A stretch of DNA of 64,000 bases, taken from Balneolaceae bacterium (lineage in GTDB: Bacteria > Bacteroidota > Rhodothermia > Balneolales > Balneolaceae). Where the stretch lies: the NCBI GenBank assembly GCA_017643365.1, contig JAEPNO010000003.1, forward strand, positions 1 to 64,000, given 5' to 3'. Positions 1,832 through 64,000 of this stretch are shown here, piece after piece. A model generated the notes under the pieces. It saw nothing but the letters and a program-made list of their open reading frames with translations, was not told where the DNA came from and did no database searches. The position numbers were made by a program, and so were the translations under genes. Each line of letters begins with the position of its first letter. The first letter of the stretch is position 1.

Positions 1832-4800
1832 TTAATTTCTTGATGATTGTGAGTAGTATTGAAGGATATAGCGACTATCCAATAAGTCACCGAAGGCATC
1901 CCAGGCTTTCAGTTCAATATTGAGAGCGTCTCTTAGATTTTGCAAAAACATGATATAATCAATTGCTCCTTCTTGGTACGCGGTAATTGCTGCACTTTGT
2001 TGTTCCTCTGCCAGAGGTAATGCCTCTTGCTTGTAATAGGTCCAGGAGTTATTCCATTTGATGTAATTCTCTTTAGCTTGAGAGTACATGCTCCAAAAAG
2101 TTCTTTCAGCTTCTTCAAATTGATTTCGGTTAATCTTTGTATGAATCTGTGAGGATTGAGTTTTTCCAAGTTGTGACCAAAAAAACAATGGAACCCGGAT
2201 ACCAACTTCATAGCTGTAAAATCCAGTTTGACCAGAAATTTCCTGTGCAGAATAACTTGCTTCAAGACGAGGTAGAAAGGCACTTTTAATGCTCTTAGAT
2301 TTTGCTTCTGAAACCTCGATATTTTGCTCTGCTTTTCTCAAAAATGGATGCATACCAGAACTATCGAATTGGCTTACAGATATATCAAGCAACTCTCTGC
2401 TCAGATCTTCCGTTGTGTACAGCATGTCTCCGTTAAACCATTGATTAAATGCTGACACCGCAGCCCGATAATCCTGCCTTGCTTGATCGGTCTGGATTTT
2501 CATATCATTCGCCTGATTGACCAGAGACAAATACTCCAGTTTTGAACTAGCCTCTGTTTCCAATCGTAGTTCTGCGGCTCTTGTAATCTCTGAGTATTGA
2601 GCATATAGCTTATCCAACAACTCAAATTTTTGCAGAGCTGTATATACTTCCGCCCAGCTTCGTTGAACCTGTAGCCGGATTTGAGCTTTGGCAAGTTCCA
2701 GGTTGTCCTCAGCCAATTGCTGCTTAGCTCTTTGTAAGTTTATCCTAGATGGAATCCCAAATAGGTCAAATTCCTGAGAAATTCCGAACCTTGTATTAAT
2801 TCCATCATTGCCATTTCCCACTTCTTCTTTACCGGTAAATATCCCGGTTTCTCCAAAGTCCCAAGCTGATTTTTTTAGGGCTTTTTCACTTTCAATACTA
2901 AGTTCCGCTGCTACTATAGCTGGATAGTTTTCTAGTGCCTTGCTAACAGCTTGTTCTACGGTTAATGGTATTAAACTTTGAGTATTTAACTCCTGAGCCT
3001 GTAGATTTCCAGAGAATAAAAAGGTACCACCTAGAATCAATACAATAGAACTTACAGTTGCTGCTTTTCTATTCCGCCGTTTCTCCTGCCATCTTTCTTC
3101 AATGGCATAAAGAACGGGAAGTATAACTAGTGAAAGTAGCGTAGCGGAAATAAGCCCACCGATTACTACCGTTGCTAACGGGCGTTGTACTTCGGCTCCG
3201 GCGGATGCTGAAAAAGCCATTGGAGTAAAGCCCATAATGGCAGCTGTTGCTGTAAGTAAAATAGGTCTTAGTCGCTCTTGCGTACCTGCCAAAATTCGTT
3301 CTTTCAAGTCAGCAACCCCTTCTTCTTTTAATGAATTAAATCTGCTAATAAGCACAAGCCCATTTAGTACTGCTACTCCAAAAAGTACAATGAAACCAAC
3401 TCCGGCAGAGATGCTGAACGACATTCCTCTCAGCTCCATAAAGAAAACTCCCCCGATTGCTGCCAGTGGAATGGCCAGGTAGATCATGACCGATTGTGCG
3501 AAAGAGTTGAGGGCAAAATAAAGCAGTACAAAGATCAGAAAGAGTGCAATAGGTACTACAATGCCAAGCCGACTTTTTGCCCGTTGCAGATTTTCGAATT
3601 CTCCACCATAGGTGATATAATATCCCGGAGGTAAGGAAAGTTCGGCATCAAGCCTGTCCTGAATTTCAGAAACCAAAGACTCAACATCACGACCACGAGC
3701 ATTTACGCCAACATAGGTTCTACGGAACGTATTGTCCCGAGATATCTGCATTGGTCCGGGCTGGTAACTTATATCAGCAACTTCTTTGATAGGAACCTGT
3801 GTGCCATTCTCAAGGTCGATGTATAGGTTTTGAAGATCTTCAATTCCAGTTCTGAACGTTTCATCAAAACGAACCACCAGATCGAAACGTTTTTCACCTT
3901 CGAACACAACTCCGGCTACACCTCCGGCAAAAGCAGTACTAACGTAATCGTTTAGTTTTTCAATAGTAAGACCGTATTGTGCTACTTTATCACGATTATA
4001 CTGAACCGTTATCTGAGGTAGCCCGGATATTCTTTCGGGACTTACATCCCCAACTCCGGGAACCATTTGAATGATCGAAGCCATTTCATTCACTTTTTGG
4101 GAAAGTATTTCTAAGTCTTCCCCATACAGTTTAACCGCAATATCCTCCCTTACGCCTTCCAATAGCTCATTAAACCGAAGTTCAACTGGTTGAGTAAATA
4201 CCAGATTCACTCCTACGAGAGATTCATCAAGTGTAGCTTTAATTTTATCGATAAGCTCATCTTTAGAATCAGCCGAAACCCAACTGTCTTTATCTTTATT
4301 TAGTATGATGTACATATCTGCAATATCAAATGGCATTGGGTCAGTAGGGATATCTGCAACACCAATACGAGCAGTAACGGTTTCTACTTCCGGGAACTCA
4401 TTAAGAAGTATTCTCTCAATTTTTTTGGATACTTCAATCGATTCTGTAAGACCGCTACCTGGCCTTATCAGAGCTTGCATTGCAATATCACCTTCATCTA
4501 GTTGTGGAATGAACTCTCCACCCATTCTCGTAAAAGTAAAAATAGCAGCAGCAAAAAGGATCACTGCCAGCCCAATAACCAATGCTTTTCGGTTCAGAGA
4601 CTGTATAATTACCGGACGGTAAACTTTTTGGATATGTTCTATAATCTTATTGCTGAATCGGTCTAGCGCACCTTCAATTCTTACAAACCAATTGGATTTG
4701 TTATTTGATGGTCGCATAACTACTGCCGAGATCATAGGTACATAGGTAAGGCAGAGAATAATGGCACCGAGCACTGCAAATCCGAAGGTAAAGGCCATTG

Positions 4801-6229
4801 GGCGAAACATTTTTCCTTCCACTCCTTCAAGAAAAAGAATGGGAGTAAATACAATGAGAATAATTAATTGCCCAAAGAACGCAGCGTTCATCATCGTGCT
4901 ACTGGCTTTATAAGAGATTTCGTCCATCTGCACTTTATTGAATGTGTGCTTTCCAGATTTTACCCTCTTTTGTATTTCATGAACTATGCCCTCCACAATG
5001 ATTACTGCACCATCTACGATGATACCAAAGTCGATGGCTCCAAGGCTCATAAGATTTGCCCAAACTCCAGTAGCCTTCATCAAAATAAAGGCGAATAACA
5101 AAGATAAGGGAATCAAGGAAGCTGTTATTAATCCCCCTCTCAGGCTACCAAGCAGTAATACTAATACGAATACGACTATTAATGCACCCTCGATCAAGTT
5201 TTTAGAAACCGTACTCGTAGTTCTCCCGATCAATTCACTTCGGTCAATGATGGGTTCTATGTGTAATCCTTCGGGCAATGAGTTTTGTATCTCAGCAATA
5301 CGATCACGAACCCTGTTCACTGTAGCATTGGGGTTTGAACCTTTCAGCATCATGATTATTCCACCGACCGCTTCTTCTCCGTCTTGTGTAAAGGCTCCAT
5401 AGCGGGTCTGAGTACCAAATTTTACTTCGGCGACAACATCATTAATTGTAATGGGCAAGCCCCCTTCATTTTTAACCACGATATTTCTTATGTCATCGAG
5501 CGTTCGTATAAGCCCTTCTCCACGAATAAAATTAGCCATACGATTTTTCTCAATGTATGCGCCGCCAGTATTTGTGTTATTCTCTGCAAGAGCTTCATAC
5601 ACTTCCGAGATCGTAATACCCATTGCATTGAGTTTCTCTGGATTGAGTGAGACTTCGTACTGCTTAATGCCTCCCCCAAATGAGTTTACCTCTACGACTC
5701 CTTCCAGCATCACCATCTGTCTTTTTATGATCCAGTCCTGGATGGTTCTGAGTTCGTTTGGGGTATATTCTGACTGAAATTCTGGATCTACTTTTATTGA
5801 ATACTCATAGATCTGACCCAATCCACTGGAAATGGGACCCATTTCGGGGCTTCCAAACTTATCGGGAATAGTTTCACCCAGTTCGTTTAGTTTTTCTTGC
5901 ACAAGCTGTCGGGGTAGATAGGTCCCCATATCATCTTCAAAAACGATAGTAACTACAGAAAGACCGAAACGGGAAATAGAACGTATTTCGGTGACCCCCG
6001 GTAAGTTTCCCATTGCAAGTTCAACGGGATACGTCACAAATTGCTCGATGTCTTCGGTACCTAGGTTTTCAGATACTGTAATTACCTGAACCTGATTATT
6101 TGTTATGTCGGGTACGGAACCGAGGTTAATGGTCAGCATAGAATAAATGCCAACACCAATTAAGGTTAGGACAAACAAGCTGATGATAAACTTGTTCCTA
6201 ACGGAAAACGAAATAATTTTATTGATCAT
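1832..6229 (-). CDS. CusA/CzcA-type heavy-metal RND pump fused to a TolC-type outer-membrane channel
   Basis: A 1465-residue protein. Residues 1 to about 1045 form a complete heavy-metal RND pump: 12 predicted membrane segments, two large periplasmic loops, and the TM4 proton-relay motif with acidic residues (GAIDFGIIVDGAVIIVEGI, about 395-413). Residues about 1078-1465 are a TolC-family channel (PLTVEQAVSKALENYPAIVA near its start, long coiled-coil helices). Between them (about 1050-1077) lies a basic stretch RRNRK, a hydrophobic stretch and LQAQ, which looks exactly like a signal peptide with its cleavage site. A normal CusA is about 1040 residues, so the extra 400 are a fused CusC. Such long CusA proteins occur in Bacteroidota. 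Cleavage into two proteins is an inference. The gene heads the operon with the adaptor and the PII-like protein. Confidence 0.9.
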   Translation of the reverse strand: MINKIISFSVRNKFIISLFVLTLIGVGIYSMLTINLGSVPDITNNQVQVITVSENLGTEDIEQFVTYPVELAMGNLPGVTEIRSISRFGLSVVTIVFEDDMGTYLPRQLVQEKLNELGETIPDKFGSPEMGPISSGLGQIYEYSIKVDPEFQSEYTPNELRTIQDWIIKRQMVMLEGVVEVNSFGGGIKQYEVSLNPEKLNAMGITISEVYEALAENNTNTGGAYIEKNRMANFIRGEGLIRTLDDIRNIVVKNEGGLPITINDVVAEVKFGTQTRYGAFTQDGEEAVGGIIMMLKGSNPNATVNRVRDRIAEIQNSLPEGLHIEPIIDRSELIGRTTSTVSKNLIEGALIVVFVLVLLLGSLRGGLITASLIPLSLLFAFILMKATGVWANLMSLGAIDFGIIVDGAVIIVEGIVHEIQKRVKSGKHTFNKVQMDEISYKASSTMMNAAFFGQLIILIVFTPILFLEGVEGKMFRPMAFTFGFAVLGAIILCLTYVPMISAVVMRPSNNKSNWFVRIEGALDRFSNKIIEHIQKVYRPVIIQSLNRKALVIGLAVILFAAAIFTFTRMGGEFIPQLDEGDIAMQALIRPGSGLTESIEVSKKIERILLNEFPEVETVTARIGVADIPTDPMPFDIADMYIILNKDKDSWVSADSKDELIDKIKATLDESLVGVNLVFTQPVELRFNELLEGVREDIAVKLYGEDLEILSQKVNEMASIIQMVPGVGDVSPERISGLPQITVQYNRDKVAQYGLTIEKLNDYVSTAFAGGVAGVVFEGEKRFDLVVRFDETFRTGIEDLQNLYIDLENGTQVPIKEVADISYQPGPMQISRDNTFRRTYVGVNARGRDVESLVSEIQDRLDAELSLPPGYYITYGGEFENLQRAKSRLGIVVPIALFLIFVLLYFALNSFAQSVMIYLAIPLAAIGGVFFMELRGMSFSISAGVGFIVLFGVAVLNGLVLISRFNSLKEEGVADLKERILAGTQERLRPILLTATAAIMGFTPMAFSASAGAEVQRPLATVVIGGLISATLLSLVILPVLYAIEERWQEKRRNRKAATVSSIVLILGGTFLFSGNLQAQELNTQSLIPLTVEQAVSKALENYPAIVAAELSIESEKALKKSAWDFGETGIFTGKEEVGNGNDGINTRFGISQEFDLFGIPSRINLQRAKQQLAEDNLELAKAQIRLQVQRSWAEVYTALQKFELLDKLYAQYSEITRAAELRLETEASSKLEYLSLVNQANDMKIQTDQARQDYRAAVSAFNQWFNGDMLYTTEDLSRELLDISVSQFDSSGMHPFLRKAEQNIEVSEAKSKSIKSAFLPRLEASYSAQEISGQTGFYSYEVGIRVPLFFWSQLGKTQSSQIHTKINRNQFEEAERTFWSMYSQAKENYIKWNNSWTYYKQEALPLAEEQQSAAITAYQEGAIDYIMFLQNLRDALNIELKAWDAFGDLLDSRYILQYYSQSSRN

Positions 6230-8015: not shown

Positions 8016-9335
8016 ATGAGCATCAAAGTAGCAGAAGTGCACATTTGGGGAAGATTAGCAGGTGCGGTAGCCTGGGATGAACGTACGGGGTATGCCAGCT
8101 TTGAATATGATCCCGAGTTTAGAAATTTGGGCTGGGAGCTCGCTCCTTTAAAAATGCCGGTGAATTCACCCAAGGATATATTCTCATTTCCGGAACTTCG
8201 AAAAGACAGAAATGACAGTTACGATGCTTTTAAAGGGTTGCCGGGACTGCTGGCCGATGCTCTTCCGGATAACTATGGAAATCAGCTTATCAATCTATGG
8301 CTGGCGCAGCAAGGTCGTCCCCAAGACAGTATGAATCCGGTGGAAATGTTATGCTTTATCGGGACTCGTGGAATGGGAGCCTTAGAATTTAAACCCACGG
8401 TTCTAAAAGAGAATGTACATACCTTTTCTGTAGAGATAGATAGTTTGGTAAGCATGGCTCAAAAGATGCTCTACCAACGGGAGGGATTTGCTACGAATCT
8501 GCAAAAGGATGAAGAAAAAGCCGTTTCTGAGATACTGAAAATCGGGACTTCAGCCGGTGGTGCACGACCAAAGGCGGTTATAGCTTGGAATGAAAAAACC
8601 GGGGAAGTAAAATCCGGGCAAACCAAAGCCCCTAAAGGCTTCGAACACTGGCTCATCAAGTTGGATGGAGTAAGCGATGTTCAACTGGGAGCAACCAAAG
8701 GCTATGGCCGGGTAGAATTGGCCTACTACAATATGGCAACAGATTGTGGGATCACTATGATGCCGTGTACCCTTTTGGAAGAATATGGGCGCGCTCATTT
8801 TATGACCAAGCGTTTCGACCGTGAAACAGGGTACATCAAACATCATGTACAAACTTTCTGCGGGCTAAAGCACTTCGATTATAATCAGGTGACAAGTTTC
8901 AGTTATGAACAGCTGTTCCAATGCATGAGGGAGCTCAAACTCACTTATAAAGATGCTGAACAGATGTTTCGCAGAATGGTTTTCAATGTGATTGCCCGTA
9001 ATTGCGATGATCACACCAAGAACTTTTCCTTTATGCTAAAGAAAGGCGAAAAATGGGATTTAGCTCCGGCTTATGATCTTTGCCACGCCTATCGCCCGGG
9101 AAGTCAATGGGTGAGCCAACATGCCCTCAGTATTAACGGTAAGCGAAAAGATATTACGAGAAAAGATCTGCTATCTGTGGGCGCAAGCATTTCCATGAAA
9201 AGTAAAAAAGCGGCTGAAATTATTGACGAGATCAATGAAATAGTACATAACTGGAAAACCTATGCAGACCAAGTAAAGATTGATCCCCTACTTCGAGATG
9301 AAATCCAACACACTTTGTTAGATCTGGCGAAATAA
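8016..9335 (+). CDS. hipA: HipA-like serine/threonine kinase toxin
   Basis: A 439-residue protein of usual HipA length. It has the N-terminal HipA_N region (residues 1-110), the Gly-rich loop TSAGGARPKAVI (about 178-189), the catalytic loop around Asn329-Cys-Asp-Asp-His333 followed by TKNFSF, and the metal-binding motif DLAPAYD (348-354), matching the two essential Asp of E. coli HipA. HipA toxins phosphorylate an aminoacyl-tRNA synthetase (GltX in E. coli) and cause dormancy. The actual target here is unknown. All key kinase residues are present, so the toxin should be active. It is cotranscribed with hipB. Confidence 0.9.
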   Translation: MSIKVAEVHIWGRLAGAVAWDERTGYASFEYDPEFRNLGWELAPLKMPVNSPKDIFSFPELRKDRNDSYDAFKGLPGLLADALPDNYGNQLINLWLAQQGRPQDSMNPVEMLCFIGTRGMGALEFKPTVLKENVHTFSVEIDSLVSMAQKMLYQREGFATNLQKDEEKAVSEILKIGTSAGGARPKAVIAWNEKTGEVKSGQTKAPKGFEHWLIKLDGVSDVQLGATKGYGRVELAYYNMATDCGITMMPCTLLEEYGRAHFMTKRFDRETGYIKHHVQTFCGLKHFDYNQVTSFSYEQLFQCMRELKLTYKDAEQMFRRMVFNVIARNCDDHTKNFSFMLKKGEKWDLAPAYDLCHAYRPGSQWVSQHALSINGKRKDITRKDLLSVGASISMKSKKAAEIIDEINEIVHNWKTYADQVKIDPLLRDEIQHTLLDLAK

Positions 9336-34503: not shown

Positions 34504-35196
34504 TTAGTTAGATGCTACTTGATAATAAATACGTACAACAATTCTTCTATTCAATGCTCTGTTTTCGATGATATTTCTACCTTCTTCATCCACATGAGGA
34601 ACTACCGGCTTCGTATCTGCATATCCTGAGGCTTTTAATCTTTCAGCTTCAATACCTTCTTCAATAAAGTATTTTACTACACCTGATGCTCTTGCAACAG
34701 AAAGCTCCCAGTTTGATGGGTAGATGGGAGTATTGATGGGTACATTATCGGTATGACCTTCTACATCCACATTGAACTTATAGAAATCCAGTTCGTTCAT
34801 TGCCTGTGTAACTTTATCGATAATTACCTGTCCGGTGGGTAGTAACTCAGCTTCACCTGATTGGTAAAACGAACTACTGGAGAAGTATAATTTGATACCG
34901 TCACGATCGAGGGTAATATCAACTAAGCCTTGAGTTTTTTCAACGGCTAGTAACGAATCCAAATCTGCTTTTACTTCAGCAAGAGGGGTACGAACATCTT
35001 CTTGTTTCGAAATTTCTGATCGTAAACCTTGCTTCATTTGCTCCCAGAGATTTAAATCTACATATGACACAGCTATCAGCATTGCAAAAAAAGCAAGTAA
35101 CAAGGTAATCATATCACTATAAGTGAGTAACCATTCCTGATCCTCAACATGCTCTTCCTTTATATCAGAATTTCCGCCGTATTCGCGTTTAATCAC
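34504..35196 (-). CDS. motB: MotB-like stator protein with OmpA-type peptidoglycan-binding domain
   Basis: A 230-residue protein: a cytoplasmic N-tail, one membrane helix starting WLLTYSDMITLLLAFFAMLI with the ion-carrying Asp at residue 28, a linker (about 55-90) including a plug-like helix, and an OmpA/MotB domain (about 100-225) with VEGHTDNVPI, SNWELSVARA and NRRIVVRIYY. All essential MotB residues (Asp in the pore, peptidoglycan-binding Asp/Arg) are present. Length is short of E. coli MotB (308). It follows motA by 13 bases. With MotA it should form an ion-driven 5:2 stator anchored to peptidoglycan. Ion specificity cannot be told. Confidence 0.9.
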   Translation of the reverse strand: MIKREYGGNSDIKEEHVEDQEWLLTYSDMITLLLAFFAMLIAVSYVDLNLWEQMKQGLRSEISKQEDVRTPLAEVKADLDSLLAVEKTQGLVDITLDRDGIKLYFSSSSFYQSGEAELLPTGQVIIDKVTQAMNELDFYKFNVDVEGHTDNVPINTPIYPSNWELSVARASGVVKYFIEEGIEAERLKASGYADTKPVVPHVDEEGRNIIENRALNRRIVVRIYYQVASN

Positions 35197-35209: not shown

Positions 35210-36028
35210 TTAGTCTGCTACTTGCTTATTCTTGAAATCTCGTCGTAAATAAGTACTTAATTTATCCTGAATGTAGAAGGATGATTTTTTATCGTTGATC
35301 AACAAAATACCTTCGAGAATAAAATACTCGCGGAACCTGTTAAGTTGAGCTACATTTTTAATTTTCTCTGCAACCGGGTAGAAAATAAACCGAGCCAATG
35401 ATATCCCATAAAGTGTGGTTATCAATGCTGCTGCAAGTCCCGGTCCCATTCCTGAGGGATTTTCAAGTTGACCAAGCATCACAATTAAACCAAATAAAGT
35501 ACCGAACATCCCAAATGAAGGTGCCGCTGCCCCCATTGCACGTAGCACATCAACTACTACCAGTTGCCGAAAATATTGCTCTTCAATATGATTCGCTCCA
35601 AACGACTTAATATCCTCACTTGAATAATTAGTACTCATTAAAGAGAACAAGTAACCGGAAACTTCACCCACATGTTCGTCTTCCAGTTTCGAAAGCGCAG
35701 TTACGCGATTATTTTTAATCTGATCGTTCCAAACAAGCATTTCACCTAGATCAGATTCTAAGGTTTTGGATGATGTTTTAGCTTGGCTGAATAAGTAAAA
35801 TAATCCGGCAAATGCTTGCCCAACATATTTTGGTTGATAGGTAATAAATACAGCATTTAGGATACCACCCATCACTATAAATAAACTAGGAAGGTTTAAA
35901 AACGTGTATTGCGATAGAAAAGGGATGGAACTTAAAACGTTTGTGACGCTGGTGATCTCGGTTACCCCGAAAACCAGAATTCCCACACTAAAAAGTACCC
36001 CTAAAATATTTGTTAACGAAAGTCTCAT
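35210..36028 (-). CDS. motA: MotA-like stator channel subunit
   Basis: A 272-residue inner-membrane protein with four membrane helices (about 7-30, 43-63, 163-186, 197-219) and a large cytoplasmic loop (about 70-160), the MotA plan. The last two helices carry MFGTLFGLIVMLGQL and GPGLAAALITTLYGISLARF, the ion-channel motifs of MotA, including the Thr that faces the MotB Asp. Relationship is to MotA rather than ExbB/TolQ (three helices, shorter). The ATGA overlap of 4 bases with the upstream lipoprotein gene and the 13-base gap to motB show one transcript. The cytoplasmic loop would meet the FliG-like rotor encoded upstream. Confidence 0.9.
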   Translation of the reverse strand: MRLSLTNILGVLFSVGILVFGVTEITSVTNVLSSIPFLSQYTFLNLPSLFIVMGGILNAVFITYQPKYVGQAFAGLFYLFSQAKTSSKTLESDLGEMLVWNDQIKNNRVTALSKLEDEHVGEVSGYLFSLMSTNYSSEDIKSFGANHIEEQYFRQLVVVDVLRAMGAAAPSFGMFGTLFGLIVMLGQLENPSGMGPGLAAALITTLYGISLARFIFYPVAEKIKNVAQLNRFREYFILEGILLINDKKSSFYIQDKLSTYLRRDFKNKQVAD

Positions 36029-36651
36029 TGTCCACCGTCCTCTCGTAGTTCATTAATTAATGTTTCTAATTCCGGAATGCTTGGTACAGGAATATTCGGA
36101 TCCATCTGTACGGCTTTATTCCAATTTGCCCGAGCAGCAGTAATATTCTCCATCATAAAAAAGATAGTCCCTTTAAGTGCATAAGCGTCGGCAGTTTCTT
36201 GAATCCGCATCGTTTTTTCAACTTCGGCAAGGGCGTCGTTGTATTCGCCCAGGTAAAATAAATCCTGTGCTTTTCTATAACTCGCTAGCAAAGTTTGAAT
36301 ATCGCGAGCGCGGTTTTTAACCAGAGATGAATCAACCACGATAATGGAATCGGACTCCGTTGGAGTCATTCCTTTCAAATCTAAGTAGAACTCATCTTGG
36401 CTTGGATCAAGAGTTACCTGAATAGCAGAACTTGCATTTCGATAGGTTACGATAACAGGGTTTGGTCGCCTGGTTTCATTTTCCGATTCACCAGAATTCG
36501 AATTATTACTTAATTCCGGAATTGTTTGAATTCCATTCTGTGGCTCTTCCTGAGCTGCTTCAGTTGATTTACAACTATAGCCAGCCATAGCGATCAAAGT
36601 CACTAATAGAATCGATTTAAAATCTAACAACCGCGTGCACACCATATCCAA
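36025..36651 (-). CDS. TPR-containing lipoprotein of the motor operon
   Basis: A 208-residue lipoprotein: hydrophobic signal ending AGYSC, with Cys27 as lipid anchor, then a low-complexity Asn/Glu/Ser linker, a short strand-rich part (about 70-95), and TPR-like helix pairs (about 115-200: YRKAQDLFYLGEYNDALAEV, YALKGTIFFMMENITAARAN). The start overlaps the preceding gene by 35 bases. A downstream TTG is another possible start. TPR lipoproteins act as scaffolds or pilotins for envelope machines. Here it may link the motor to the outer membrane. No family name is certain. Confidence 0.72.
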   Translation of the reverse strand: MDMVCTRLLDFKSILLVTLIAMAGYSCKSTEAAQEEPQNGIQTIPELSNNSNSGESENETRRPNPVIVTYRNASSAIQVTLDPSQDEFYLDLKGMTPTESDSIIVVDSSLVKNRARDIQTLLASYRKAQDLFYLGEYNDALAEVEKTMRIQETADAYALKGTIFFMMENITAARANWNKAVQMDPNIPVPSIPELETLINELREDGGQ

Positions 36652-37702
36652 CCTTATTGTATGTTATTCTGTCGTTGTTGCTAAGTCGAAGCTCCTCACC
36701 GGATAATATCAGACTTGTATAAAACGAGAGACCTAAGTTTTTACTCATATTAAACATGATTCCGGGACGGGCCGTAAACATTTCTCCTTTTGTATTACTA
36801 AGGGGAAGCTGAACGCTGGTATTCAAGTACACCACCATTCTGTAACTATCAATGTCTTCATTTTTTTCAGGTGAAAGTGCCTGATAATAGGTCAAACCAA
36901 AGTTCAACAAGAATAAATTAAATTCATCGGCACGGCGCGCTCTTAAAATATTCACCCCACCCGTAAATCCTATATACGCACTATTCTCTCGGTTTAATGG
37001 CTGCCGATAGGTAAAATTGGCTGCATAATTTAAAACAGGAGTAGTAATCGAGGTATCCTGATTTGCAAAGGATGTATCGGCTCTGAATTTTGAATCTGTT
37101 TGCATCGAACCCGCACCAAATGCTAAAATTAAAGTTTGGCCTTTATCAACTTGTTCAACCACTTCGAAAGGATTGGCGATGAAGCTTTTTGCCCACACTA
37201 TTTCGCGTGATCTTGGATTCATCATTCGAACCGAAAGAATCAGTCCGTCGGGGTTACGGCGTTGTAAACCAACTTCAATTAAGCCATTTACACCATACTT
37301 TTCGGTAACTTCAGCAAGAAATTCAGGCGAAACATCTGCAAGCGATCTTCCTTGAATATTCAATATCTGAAGTGTGCTATCATTCCCCATGATTTTCATT
37401 TTATCATTGGGCTCAAGTTCTGGTGGCGAAAGTACTGTAATACCTGCGTACGTTCGCAGTGAAGACTCAATCTCGCTTCTAATAAATTCAACTTCTTGAA
37501 CAGTAAAGCGCATTGCATTATAGTTCATTTTATATACCGCAACACGGCGAACATTCGCCGGGATGTCGTTCAATTGATCCACCATTTGAAGGGTGATCAA
37601 TCCCATTTGATAAGGCACACCTTCTTCATGGGATTGTGCCTGTAAATTTTCAACTAATCCAAAGGTCAGTATCAGAAAACTAAACAGTACTACTCTTTTC
37701 AT
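36617..37702 (-). CDS. Exported FlgO/CsgG-like protein with C-terminal beta-barrel
   Basis: A 361-residue exported protein (signal peptide ending VENLQAQ at about residue 23). Residues about 30-185 resemble the alpha/beta fold of FlgO/CsgG/LpoB-type proteins: RRVAVYKMNYNAMRFT, then YGVNGLIEVGLQRRNPDGLI and SVRMMNPRSREIVWAKSFIA, the typical pattern of a two-layer sandwich with a GxG...L strand. Residues about 215-361 are alternating amphipathic strands ending in VGYGVHAVVRF, the terminal Phe of an outer-membrane barrel. FlgO proteins belong to flagellar basal bodies of Vibrio and CsgG to secretion pores. The likeness is by pattern only. Three bases separate it from the FliF-FliG gene. Confidence 0.65.
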   Translation of the reverse strand: MKRVVLFSFLILTFGLVENLQAQSHEEGVPYQMGLITLQMVDQLNDIPANVRRVAVYKMNYNAMRFTVQEVEFIRSEIESSLRTYAGITVLSPPELEPNDKMKIMGNDSTLQILNIQGRSLADVSPEFLAEVTEKYGVNGLIEVGLQRRNPDGLILSVRMMNPRSREIVWAKSFIANPFEVVEQVDKGQTLILAFGAGSMQTDSKFRADTSFANQDTSITTPVLNYAANFTYRQPLNRENSAYIGFTGGVNILRARRADEFNLFLLNFGLTYYQALSPEKNEDIDSYRMVVYLNTSVQLPLSNTKGEMFTARPGIMFNMSKNLGLSFYTSLILSGEELRLSNNDRITYNKVGYGVHAVVRF

Positions 37703-37705
37703 TGT

Positions 37706-39565
37706 TTAGCCCTCAGTCTTCATTTTTCTACGAACAGCATAGAGCACCGTTTTTTGTGCATCTTCAATACTAGCTTTTGGTACGTCAGCGGGATTGTCAA
37801 CTTCCGAGAGTATCAATTGCTGCTCACGTTTTGGACGAACTTTTAGAATTTTTTCTCTAACCGCAGCCGGGGCAGTTTTAAGTGCCAAAATCAACGTTTC
37901 TGTTTGAATATCTTCCAACGCACTTTGTACAAAATCATCTTTTACTTTAGGTAGATCATCAAAACCGATAAAGAATTTCTTAATGCGTTTTGCAAGATTT
38001 AAATCCTGCTCGGCAATTGAACGCACATAATCGTCCTGCTCAGAAAGTGGCATGGTCTCTAAAGTGGTTAGAATCGAATCTATACCATCGGCAGCTACGT
38101 ATTTCATGTCCGATACAGACAACGCTTTATTCGAGAAATGGGCAGCAACCTTTTTATACACCGAAATTGGAATATTATTGATCTTACCCATTTTCAACAG
38201 AATAGAAATCCTTTTTTGCTCATCCATTTTTTGGAGGATAACACCGGCTCTTTCTCCCGCAATCTGAGCTAACAAAATGGCTACTAATTCATCCGACTCT
38301 TCTTTAATGAGGTGCAATAACTGCACATCGGTAAGTTGGTATACAAAATCGAAAAGACTTGAGCCGGAATCGGCAGTGCCATTTTTAGAGTTTACCTGCT
38401 GAAGGCTTCTTCTCAGTGCTTTTACTTCATCAATCCTTTCATCAATTGGGATAGAGTCCAGGTTTTGAATAGAAAACTTTACCGATTCGTAATGATCCAC
38501 TTTCAAATGTGGTTCCAGCACATTAATTAATTTCTCATCAACGCTACTTAGTGCCCGAGCCGATCTAATTATTCCCTGCTCGTCATCACTTGCAATCCAT
38601 TGTCCAACCAAATCGGAAACTTTATCGGGATGACTAATGCACGAATTGGTCACATATGTTTTATCCTCTTCATGCTGTGCTAAAGTCTTAGCATCTGGGC
38701 CTTTTGGCTCCTCTTTCGTTTCTGATGCAGGCATTGCCATAGCGGCTTCATAACCAGGCATCGGAGGCATTCTATATTCTTCTTCTCGTTTCGATGGACG
38801 CTTCAATAGTGCCACTAACAAAGCGATTAAAAATAATACACCCAGAATGGCAATTACATATATAAGGTGTTGGGGATTATTCCAATCGATCCCTAAAAAC
38901 ATATTCTTTTCAGGCTCAGCAGTTTCTTGTTGATTCATCGCTGGGTCAAGCAATTCTACCTGCGGCTCTTCTTCTTGTTCAGGCTCTTCTTCTTCAATGT
39001 TTGAACGCCTTGCCAGAGCATCCTGTTCGATGGCACGAGCACTTCTTGGGAAAACTTTTTTCTCAACCGTTACAATATCGCCACGGAACGGATCTGCATT
39101 TGCAATTAAAGAAGTTGCTTCTTCAACAAATTCTACGTCTTCATCACTGTAAGATGTATCAACAAGTACTTTAATATTTAAGCGAGTCAGCCTGAAACGA
39201 GCATCAAACCCGGAGGCTTTTAAACTATCGGTAGTACCATTTGTAGACCTTTGAAGATTAGGTGGTACAAACGGAAGTCCCGGAAGATTTTCGATACGCA
39301 CAGGCTCTTCGCCTTCGATCACTTCATACCCTCTAGGAACCAGCACACGTTCAAGTGAAGCTTTCGCATCTACTATAAAAGTGCCTCGCCGATAGTAATC
39401 GGAAAGAGCGTTATTTAAAATTACCTCGTAATACTGCTCATACTTAGCAGCTTCCTCCTGAACATCGGTAGAAACTACCTGTCCGGGTAATGTTTGGGCA
39501 ATAATACCAGTGCTTAAACAGGTAAATACCAGTACTAATAGCCATTTATGTTTTTTCCCAACCAT
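37706..39565 (-). CDS. FliF-FliG fusion: membrane ring plus rotor protein of a non-flagellar motor
   Basis: About 619 residues from the start at 39565, chosen because it has AGGGG upstream and a proper signal peptide (KWLLVLVFTCLSTGIIAQ). A frame extends 31 codons further to 39658 but lacks these signs. Order: periplasmic part (45-175) like the FliF C-terminal half (LTRLNIKVLVDTS at 126-138, then RGDIVTVEKKVFP 161-173), an acidic linker (188-220), one membrane helix (234-255), a FliG-binding-like helix (SHPDKVSDLVGQWI, 311-324), then a complete FliG: N-like helices (331-392), middle domain (EESDELVAILLAQIAGERAG, 422-441), C domain with KRIKKFFIGFDDLP (526-539), LILALKTAPAAVREKIL (558-574) and AQKTVLYAVRRKM. 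Arg570 aligns with an E. coli FliG torque residue. First gene of the motor operon. Confidence 0.85.
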   Translation of the reverse strand: MVGKKHKWLLVLVFTCLSTGIIAQTLPGQVVSTDVQEEAAKYEQYYEVILNNALSDYYRRGTFIVDAKASLERVLVPRGYEVIEGEEPVRIENLPGLPFVPPNLQRSTNGTTDSLKASGFDARFRLTRLNIKVLVDTSYSDEDVEFVEEATSLIANADPFRGDIVTVEKKVFPRSARAIEQDALARRSNIEEEEPEQEEEPQVELLDPAMNQQETAEPEKNMFLGIDWNNPQHLIYVIAILGVLFLIALLVALLKRPSKREEEYRMPPMPGYEAAMAMPASETKEEPKGPDAKTLAQHEEDKTYVTNSCISHPDKVSDLVGQWIASDDEQGIIRSARALSSVDEKLINVLEPHLKVDHYESVKFSIQNLDSIPIDERIDEVKALRRSLQQVNSKNGTADSGSSLFDFVYQLTDVQLLHLIKEESDELVAILLAQIAGERAGVILQKMDEQKRISILLKMGKINNIPISVYKKVAAHFSNKALSVSDMKYVAADGIDSILTTLETMPLSEQDDYVRSIAEQDLNLAKRIKKFFIGFDDLPKVKDDFVQSALEDIQTETLILALKTAPAAVREKILKVRPKREQQLILSEVDNPADVPKASIEDAQKTVLYAVRRKMKTEG

Positions 39566-39819
39566 TTCAAACCCCTGTAGAGTAAGTTGATGCCTGTAGT
39601 TTTGAATTTTTTTACGAAAAGAGCTTAAGTATGCAGAATTTTTTAGAGTTTTCCACATCTTTCTTCAAAAAACTACATAATTCTACCTATAAAATTCTAC
39701 ACAAAATCACTATATCAACCCAATATGATGTTAAAATACACCTGAAGGACCTTATTTTTGTCGAATTATCCACATTTTTAAATTTATTGTGCTTTAAAAA
39801 GTCTAATGGAGCACTAATT

Positions 39820-61933: not shown

Positions 61934-64000
61934 TTATTTAATAAGCATCATTTTGCGAGTGCTTACGAAGCTACCTGCCTCAATACGGTAAATATACATA
62001 CCGCTGGCAAGAGCACTTGCATCGAACTGCACAGAGTGGTTCGCTGCCGGCATTTCGCTGCCATTCAACAAGGTTGCCACTTTACGGCCAAGCATGTCAT
62101 ATACAGTTAATGTCACTTTACTTGATTGAGGTAAAGCAAAATTAATGTTTGTGCTTGGGTTAAATGGGTTTGGATAGTTTTGCTTTAGGGCAAATTCACT
62201 TGGAATACCGAACTCATTTTCGTTGCTAGTAGATAAGCCACGAGTAAGTGTTAGCTCATTGTAAGTAGTAACAAAAGTGTTCGATTCGATATCGTAACTA
62301 TCAGCTGCAGCTAAAGTATCGCCACCAGCATTTACCATTACAGTCCAAATGAAGTCAGCACTTTGTCCAACTTCTAGATCTGCTGAAGCAAGTAATGCGT
62401 CAACTGTTTCGAGGGTAAGCGTAAGAACTGCATCTTCGCCTTCGCTATTTGAAGGAACAGCTACTACCTCGGTAGTATCAGCTGCATTAAACAATACCCA
62501 TGTATAGGTAATTGCATTGCCGTCGAAGTCTGAAGTAGAAGTCCATTCTACAGATAGATCGCCAGTTACTTCAATAGAAGCGTCGTTATCAGGCTTGTCT
62601 AGTGTAAAACGAGGATCCGGGTAAGTGAAATTTTCACCTTGGAAGAAATCAGGATTTCCACCAATCAGTTTTGCATTTCCAAAAGAGAAGTTAACAACAC
62701 CAGTAATTGACGTCATTGTCGCACCAATTTTCATGGTTTCATTTACAGTACCATTTAGCCTTCTTGACTGATCATCGTAACGTAAGCCTTCTCCGGCTTC
62801 AAGTGTATCAACAGCAACATCGCCACCTTGGCGAGAACCAAATTCGAATTCACCAAAGTCTCTGGTTCCATCAGCTTGGTTAGTAGTAATTTTTACATCA
62901 CTAAATGTTACAAGTACACCTTCGTATGGTTCGTAGTTTGCTGTAACGTCTTGTGTTAACACACCAGTTAATGCAAGTGTATCCATCTCAGCGTTAGTAC
63001 CAACTTTTGTGAATGAACCGATATTCATTGTTGAGATACCGAAGTTTTCGGTGATTTCGAAGCTCGTGATGTTGATCATGTCGCCTTCAACTAAAGCGTC
63101 AGCATCTCCACCGGTTGCTACAAAAATACCAGACCACATTGCTGCTCTATCCTGAATAGTAATAAAACCATCAGTTACGGCGCTAGTTACTACCGTTGCA
63201 GTAATATCTGCAGGTACAGATCCGGCACCGGCTAGTGGGCTGTCTCCTTCTTCTCCATCATCGGATTTTTGTACAAACTCGATGGTAGTGATTTGGGTAT
63301 TTGTTACGAAGAAGCTGTATTCGCCAGCTGCAGGTGCACTACCTACAAAACCACTGTCGTCGGTTGCTTCAATTTTGAAACTAACCGTAGTTAAATCCGG
63401 GAATCCAGGCATTTCTACCGAGTACTCAGTACCAGCTGTGTTTGTCATAGCTAAGGTATCAGCTTCGCCGGCAACCGTGTAAATCAATTCAACTTTTGCT
63501 AAAGTACCTTCTGCTGCTTCTGCATTCGCAGTAACAGTTATAGTTTGATTAGCTTCGATGGTAGAATCAGACAAAGCAACGTTAGATACAACCGGAGGAA
63601 GACCTAAAATCTCAAGGTCATTAATCCACTCAAATGTTCCACCTTCAGGCTCGCAGAATTCGCCATTTATACAATAGAAAGGATCGCCATTATCGTCGGT
63701 TAACCAACGGCCACCATCTTCAAATGGGTTAATACTAAGTGGCGCTTCATTGCCATAAATACCATCAGGGTCATTACCACCATTAACGATCAAGAAACCG
63801 TTAACGTTTACAAGAGCACCTGCCGGTGGGGCTACGAAATCACCTTCAACATCAGGGCGACGGAAGTTCCAGCCAGGTAAGTATCCTGAATCCATACGAT
63901 CGTTTCTAAAACGAAGCGATAAATCATAGGTGTAAATTCGGCTACCATTTTCGTTTACTGCCCAATCAACACGACGACCATCAAAAGCGATGTTACTTGC
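61934..64000 (-). CDS. T9SS-secreted protein with C-terminal sorting domain (5' end outside the window)
   Basis: At least 688 residues, and the frame is open to the window edge, so the N-terminus is missing. The end has the type A sorting domain: FALKQNYPNPFNPSTNINFA (about 85-66 residues from the end), then VYDMLGRKVATLLNG and ASGMYIYRIEAG, with KMMLIK at the C-terminus. In front are beta-rich domains with FEITENFGIST-like strands and a SusE/DUF5689-like part. It also has an FN3-like DSTIEANQTITVTANAEAAE section. It is expected to be secreted through the T9SS and attached to the surface. Confidence 0.9.
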   Translation of the reverse strand, partial: ASNIAFDGRRVDWAVNENGSRIYTYDLSLRFRNDRMDSGYLPGWNFRRPDVEGDFVAPPAGALVNVNGFLIVNGGNDPDGIYGNEAPLSINPFEDGGRWLTDDNGDPFYCINGEFCEPEGGTFEWINDLEILGLPPVVSNVALSDSTIEANQTITVTANAEAAEGTLAKVELIYTVAGEADTLAMTNTAGTEYSVEMPGFPDLTTVSFKIEATDDSGFVGSAPAAGEYSFFVTNTQITTIEFVQKSDDGEEGDSPLAGAGSVPADITATVVTSAVTDGFITIQDRAAMWSGIFVATGGDADALVEGDMINITSFEITENFGISTMNIGSFTKVGTNAEMDTLALTGVLTQDVTANYEPYEGVLVTFSDVKITTNQADGTRDFGEFEFGSRQGGDVAVDTLEAGEGLRYDDQSRRLNGTVNETMKIGATMTSITGVVNFSFGNAKLIGGNPDFFQGENFTYPDPRFTLDKPDNDASIEVTGDLSVEWTSTSDFDGNAITYTWVLFNAADTTEVVAVPSNSEGEDAVLTLTLETVDALLASADLEVGQSADFIWTVMVNAGGDTLAAADSYDIESNTFVTTYNELTLTRGLSTSNENEFGIPSEFALKQNYPNPFNPSTNINFALPQSSKVTLTVYDMLGRKVATLLNGSEMPAANHSVQFDASALASGMYIYRIEAGSFVSTRKMMLIK

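Follow-up and report, generated by a model that had tools for sequence, protein, structure and literature searches.

The window analyzed here, a 64,000-nucleotide stretch of the Balneolaceae contig JAEPNO010000003.1, encodes on its minus strand a natural fusion of the C-terminal half of FliF with a full-length FliG, set in one operon with its own MotA and MotB. The genes probably encode a rotor-stator motor that is powered by ions, works without the flagellum, and transmits torque to a partner in the outer membrane; on this reading, it derives from the flagellar motor or is its sister. Domain homology, the operon, a single fusion clade, occurrence without FlhA and FliM, and the joint absence of FliG_C and MotAB are the observations behind it. 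The initial annotation had described one gene and was incomplete in missing the operon with its dedicated MotA and MotB; given the operon, a paralogue in the window's own genome, and relatives without a flagellum, the finding becomes a broader one of another kind, namely, a motor that appears to be independent of the flagellum.

TABLE 1 Features of the fusion gene and its operon in the window
Feature	Coordinates	Strand	Basis
FliF(RBM3-TM2-tail)-FliG fusion, 619 aa	37706..39565	minus	Pfam, PDB sequence matches, invariant Met
Signal-peptide-like N-terminus, MVGKKHKWLLVLVFTCLSTGIIAQ	39494..39565	minus	sequence and model helix, residues 3-21
Periplasmic RBM3 domain (putative), shortened collar insert with PGLPxxP motif	39047..39463	minus	hhalign to FliF RBM3
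Single transmembrane helix, FliF TM2 equivalent (predicted)	38804..38875	minus	model helix 231-254 and alignment to FliF TM2
FliG-binding tail motif of FliF	38588..38662	minus	aligned to FliF C-terminus
FliG N, M, and C domains	37709..38581	minus	Pfam, PDB sequence match, predicted fold
P0002, outer-membrane partner (candidate), LpoB/TolB-N-like periplasmic domain and 8-strand OmpA-type barrel	36617..37702	minus	structure prediction, Foldseek, VIA
P0003, TPR lipoprotein	36025..36651	minus	Pfam TPR_1/TPR_2; Cys following hydrophobic start in orthologues
P0004, MotA/PomA-type stator subunit	35210..36028	minus	MotA_ExbB E 1.2e-18; PomA E 2e-22
P0005, MotB-type stator subunit, plug and OmpA domains	34504..35196	minus	Pfam; Asp conserved 40/40

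The fusion retains the C-terminal half of FliF

The longest intact open reading frame at the locus spans positions 37706-39658 on the minus strand and encodes 650 aa. Met32 of this frame (position 39565, giving a 619-aa product) is invariant in 16/16 orthologues; hence, the start at 39565, which had also been chosen initially, is probably better than the upstream in-frame ATG at 39658.

Which part of FliF does the fusion keep? The Pfam domain YscJ_FliF_C matches it weakly, under the cut-off (E 0.08). We rely on profile-profile alignments between the fusion family, represented by 17 periplasmic domains, and 12 FliF sequences from the same class as the window genome. The periplasmic part pairs with FliF RBM3 over its full length (hhalign, 95.8%, E 6.8e-9), from the first helix of the domain through the RGD-V-T-V strand. 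With a longer profile, the whole N-terminal half aligns to FliF residues 226-555 of 557 (E 9.5e-13), a stretch that comprises RBM3, TM2, the cytoplasmic linker, and the FliG-binding tail. RBM1, RBM2, and TM1 are missing, the alignment starting at FliF 226 and being preceded only by a signal-like segment. Because the alignments run from residue 226 to near the C-terminus, the fusion is, by profile homology, a FliF without its N-terminal half, fused to FliG where the two proteins naturally bind each other. The initial annotation had correctly noted the loss of RBM1/2 and the first membrane helix, as well as a collar-like piece (the RGD-V-T-V strand) and a FliG-binding-like helix (the tail aligned to the FliF C-terminus), but it was mistaken in considering most of RBM3 gone. 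Its signal peptide and single membrane helix reappear as one internal helix at model residues 231-254 and an N-terminal segment that, judging from the sequence and model helix 3-21, is signal-peptide-like.

An AlphaFold2 model of the fusion, built from an alignment of 16 sequences, has a mean pLDDT of 57 and is poor outside the FliG part. Within the periplasmic domain, pLDDT is mostly 28-55; its secondary structure fits RBM3 at a confidence too low for a fold claim, and the FliG part (residues 330-619) takes up the VIA match list, with RBM3 barely represented. Since the domain is modelled at such low confidence, assignment of a putative ring fold, an expectation of the initial annotation, rests on homology to FliF RBM3 and draws no support from the model.

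A conserved operon with dedicated stator proteins

The fusion gene is followed, in order, by genes for P0002 (an LpoB-like domain plus an 8-strand barrel), a TPR lipoprotein, MotA, and MotB. All five genes are kept in this order at 15/15 loci from named genomes, namely, 14 metagenome assemblies (Balneola, Balneolaceae, and Rhodothermia) and Balneola sp. EhC07, whose record carries no metagenome-assembly mark. Compared with the nearest orthologues, dN/dS is ~0.02-0.08 for the four operon genes with estimable dS, which is saturated for motA and near saturation for the remaining genes. This conservation of gene order and the low dN/dS mean that the locus is not a chance arrangement, and the fusion gene is real and conserved. 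Could it nonetheless be a decaying, functionless remnant of a flagellar locus? Some relatives have indeed lost FliG_C or all of FliG, but the intact operon, the low dN/dS at nearly saturated synonymous sites, and the conservation of key residues across the fusion clade (see below) make this exceedingly improbable, and such conservation rules out a pseudogene in the window. A scan of viral contigs gave 54 pattern matches, with no relative among them.

The model of P0002 has a pLDDT of 73, and its barrel matches known structures with Z up to 15.8. Its predicted periplasmic domain resembles the C-terminal domain of LpoB, the PBP1B activator (4q6l; Z 11.5, rmsd 3.1 over 126 residues), and TolB and GNA1162 also match this fold; its sequence profile matched no solved structure.

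Other frames of the window were noted by eye, all apart from this operon: an apparent fusion of an RND efflux permease with an outer-membrane efflux protein (1832-6229, minus strand, 1465 aa), a HipA-like frame, likely a toxin-antitoxin kinase (8016-9335, plus strand), and a large surface-type protein whose tail resembles a type IX sorting domain (61934-63895, minus strand), in a genome in which GldM is not over the cut-off.

The fusions form one clade, and sister operons have different outer-membrane proteins

The window's own genome contains a second fusion, whose gene neighborhood is ordered differently: small pilin-like proteins, a chaperone-like protein, an usher-like protein, the fusion, a TPR lipoprotein, MotA, and a MotB with SPOR domains. 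We refer to the window's arrangement as type A, to the usher-bearing arrangements as types B/C, and to a set from family f42, which belongs to the same phylum but lies outside the class of the window genome, as type D. Type D consists of a barrel protein, TPR protein, MotA, MotB, and fusion, and its barrel protein is homologous to P0002 (hhalign 93.4%, E 2.5e-7). In a tree of FliG M-C domains, 46 fusions form one clade against 12 flagellar FliG proteins with a split support of 100; within the fusions, support is 87 for type A, 100 for B/C, and 100 for D.

None of the tabulated loci has an usher-like and a barrel protein together. The usher-like outer-membrane protein is ~1000 aa long and ends in TPRs; PF00577 matches 3/9 members (best E 6e-8) and a PefC-type usher profile likewise 3/9. 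The chaperone-like proteins are identified more weakly (PapD_N in 2/11 members, best E 7e-4), and no usher or chaperone structure in the PDB was matched by profiles of the sister-operon proteins. The TPR lipoprotein and the C-terminal TPR of the usher-like protein are homologous, a hint that they may share a docking site. The PGLPxxP motif in the collar insert of the fusion (39263-39283, minus strand) is nearly invariant in 17 aligned periplasmic domains of types A-C and is a possible binding site for a partner protein. One type B MotB (L036, 8880-10763) carries C-terminal SPOR domains besides OmpA and may be able to bind two kinds of wall sites.

Torque-generating residues are partly conserved

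The FliG half is full length, as the initial annotation had it, both in sequence and in predicted fold. Pfam detects FliG_C (E 1.1e-20) and FliG_M (5.3e-8) over the cut-off, and FliG_N just over it but positioned on the FliG_M stretch; the PDB sequences matching the fusion are FliG (best E 2.4e-15), and its FliG half matches full-length FliG. Foldseek matches the predicted fold to full-length FliG (8wiw_3, E 4.4e-9). Superposition of the entire FliG gives Z 15.2 over 253 residues at an rmsd of 17.8, taken as domain hinging in the model, and FliG_C alone superposes on MotAB-bound FliG with Z 13.0 and an rmsd of 1.9 over 86 residues. The analysis supports the minimal fused FliF-FliG membrane rotor that had been envisaged, with inseparable ring and torque parts.

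We then compared torque residues, numbered as in Salmonella FliG, across 46 aligned fusions (42 of types A/B/C and 4 of type D). The equivalent of R281, previously reported as not evident, is in fact present in the window protein as R611 of the 650-aa frame (R580 counted from Met32); it is Arg in 41/42 type A/B/C fusions and Lys in 4/4 of type D, so that 45/46 are basic. Position 289 is Glu in 39/42 fusions of types A/B/C, and position 288 is Ser in the window protein and acidic in 4/4 of type D. Position 264, Lys in the window protein, varies across the family, and position 297 is not kept. The EHPQ motif occurs in 0/46 fusions, which upholds the proposal of a changed FliM-binding site; the aligned window letters are E-S-D-E and not EESD as first read.

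On the stator side, MotB keeps its ion-binding transmembrane Asp throughout (40/40). The MotA equivalent of R90 is basic in 18/18 type A and 15/19 type B/C proteins and not basic in type D, and that of E98 is Glu in 3/3 type D proteins and Asp, Ser, Asn, Thr, or Ile in type A. Judging from the rotor and stator residues together, the stator-rotor contact is partly conserved and partly changed.

Distribution of the fusion and its probable independence from the flagellum

In 244 genomes of the class, the periplasmic-domain profile found 47 strong loci (E below 1e-9), spread over 34 genomes. Of a further 49 weaker matches, 46 lie on FliF-sized frames (486-575 aa); such frames carry YscJ_FliF_C in the 14 genomes checked. 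Strong matches are limited to one order of the class (families f1, f3, and f4) and, elsewhere in the phylum, to family f42, which was matched in 4/394 genomes in one scan and 5/197 in another. In the latter scan, 61/66 matching genomes were matched only by shorter FliG-like frames; the fifth type D genome (G641) is left out of the tables.

Is the fusion tied to the flagellum? Among 58 relatives, counting the window's own genome, a FliG_C-bearing fusion occurs in 17, of which 9 are without FliM and FlhA and 8 have both. FlhA is missing in 19/35 tabulated genomes with a FliG_C-bearing fusion; at a completeness of at least 97%, it is missing in 14/22 such genomes and present in 8, the window's own among them. 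Two of the nine relatives without FliM and FlhA (G034 and G043) consist of one contig each. Canonical FliG, FliM, and FlhA are all present in the window's own genome, as one would expect if the fusion served that cell's flagellum as an additional or substitute rotor. This reading is nevertheless very improbable, since so many carriers, near-complete ones included, lack FlhA, EHPQ is lost in 46/46 fusions, and the fusions form a clade separate from flagellar FliG; on these grounds we regard it as largely refuted.

Joint absence of FliG_C and the stator

Our locus table comprises 51 loci, 47 from the window's order and 4 from family f42, and 46 of them have FliG_C. We left out six loci with FliG_C that a contig end truncates ahead of MotA (L041, L048, L095, L119, L124, and L126); in the others, MotA is present in 40/40 and MotB in 39/40, the fortieth (L102) having its MotB side cut by the contig end. 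Of the loci lacking FliG_C, one (L052) is truncated at a contig end and does not enter the count, and the uncut ones have MotA/MotB in 0/4, judged within the locus only; all lie beside usher-like proteins. The chance of such joint absence is ~7e-6 (1 in 135,751, the number of ways to pick 4 loci from 44) if loci are independent, an assumption that these 44 loci do not satisfy. For this reason, we take the joint absence of FliG_C and MotAB as suggestive of rotor-stator coupling.

Shortened fusions are found at L049 (7892-9430), L050 (7814-8635), L051 (8857-9888), and L123 (3358-4032). One ends after FliG_M, keeping FliG N/M, and three consist of RBM3-TM only. They resemble motor-free versions in which the ring piece is still required.

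A proposed motor and its relation to known systems

How might these proteins work together? We infer that the fusion would assemble into one inner-membrane ring, with RBM3 forming a periplasmic S-ring-like collar, one membrane helix per chain, and FliG forming a cytoplasmic torque ring. Peptidoglycan-anchored MotA/MotB units would push FliG_C via the conserved Arg/acidic pair. Because EHPQ is lost and FliM is absent from the nine flagellum-less genomes examined, there would be no FliM/FliN switch, and any rotation would be one-way. With this topology, the collar would lie within reach of the TPR lipoprotein and the outer-membrane partner, and torque may pass from the periplasmic ring through the lipoprotein to a swappable partner as output: the LpoB-like barrel protein in the window or, in sister operons, an usher-like protein accompanied by a chaperone-like gene and pilin-like neighbors.

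With the flagellar FliF, FliG, and MotAB, the system shares RBM3, TM2, the FliG-binding tail, full FliG, MotA, MotB, and the R281/acidic pair. Unlike the flagellar rotor, the window protein is one fused chain without RBM1, RBM2, TM1, and EHPQ, and unlike the flagellum, the operon appears to need no export apparatus, has no rod or hook gene among its conserved five, and includes an outer-membrane partner. FliF-FliG fusions have been engineered (PDB 8z4d; a full-frame fusion in PMC6079021); the engineered form is also a single chain of FliF and FliG, but laboratory-made and with full-length FliF, whereas the window fusion is natural and lacks the N-terminal half of FliF. No description of this system was found in the paper library searched, and a study of MotAB evolution (PMC12505986), in the passages covered, mentions FliG once and Bacteroidota not at all.

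GldLM, Tol, Ton, and Agl are non-flagellar MotAB relatives in which an ion-driven inner-membrane stator is coupled to the outer membrane. The fusion operon resembles them in having an apparently ion-driven stator and outer-membrane coupling without a flagellum. By analogy, MotAB and the FliG ring might power outer-membrane secretion or gating with no external spin. The partners are swappable between usher and barrel protein, the usher-like protein ends in a TPR homologous to the lipoprotein, and textbook chaperone-usher systems have no energy source, all of which would suit such a transducer. This reading is unlikely: GldLM, Tol, Ton, and Agl are not known to have a FliG or FliF-type ring, and a full FliG that keeps its R281/acidic pair and is lost together with MotAB argues for torque on a ring. 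GldM (TIGR03517) was above the cut-off in 0/16 genomes, the window genome included, in a search in which no control genome was positive.

The LpoB-like domain might alternatively control a peptidoglycan synthase that the motor moves or gates. Apart from the LpoB match itself, the OmpA domain of MotB and the SPOR domains of type B MotB are in keeping with a cell-wall machine, but the TolB-N/LpoB/CsgG-like fold is widespread and gives no function on its own, and types B/C have no LpoB-like protein; we regard this explanation as improbable.

A more specific form of the torque-motor reading is possible, and we offer it tentatively: a new class of envelope machine, a modular flagellar-type rotary motor without a flagellum, its rotor plugged into either an usher-built surface fiber or, as in the window, a barrel/LpoB-like outer-membrane module. 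The usher version would be a chaperone-usher pilus that ions drive to spin or to be actively secreted, and the carriers would be Balneolaceae and related families along with another lineage within the phylum. The sister operons carry usher-like and chaperone-like proteins, candidate counterparts of those of chaperone-usher pili, but their usher-like protein has a C-terminal TPR and adjoins rotor and stator genes, and an usher is absent from the window's own operon.

All the parts come from known families, and the molecule is a variant of the flagellar rotor-stator; the system may deserve more than variant status if rotation is shown. A FliG rotor is not known from systems other than flagella. 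The link between the motor and a surface structure suggested by the joint absence of FliG_C and MotAB beside the usher-like protein is testable in cultured Balneola. If the proposal is true, one rotor and two stator proteins would offer a small system for rebuilding and measuring torque generation, and rotor-stator work and evolution would be separable from the export apparatus, which would bear on the origin of the flagellum.
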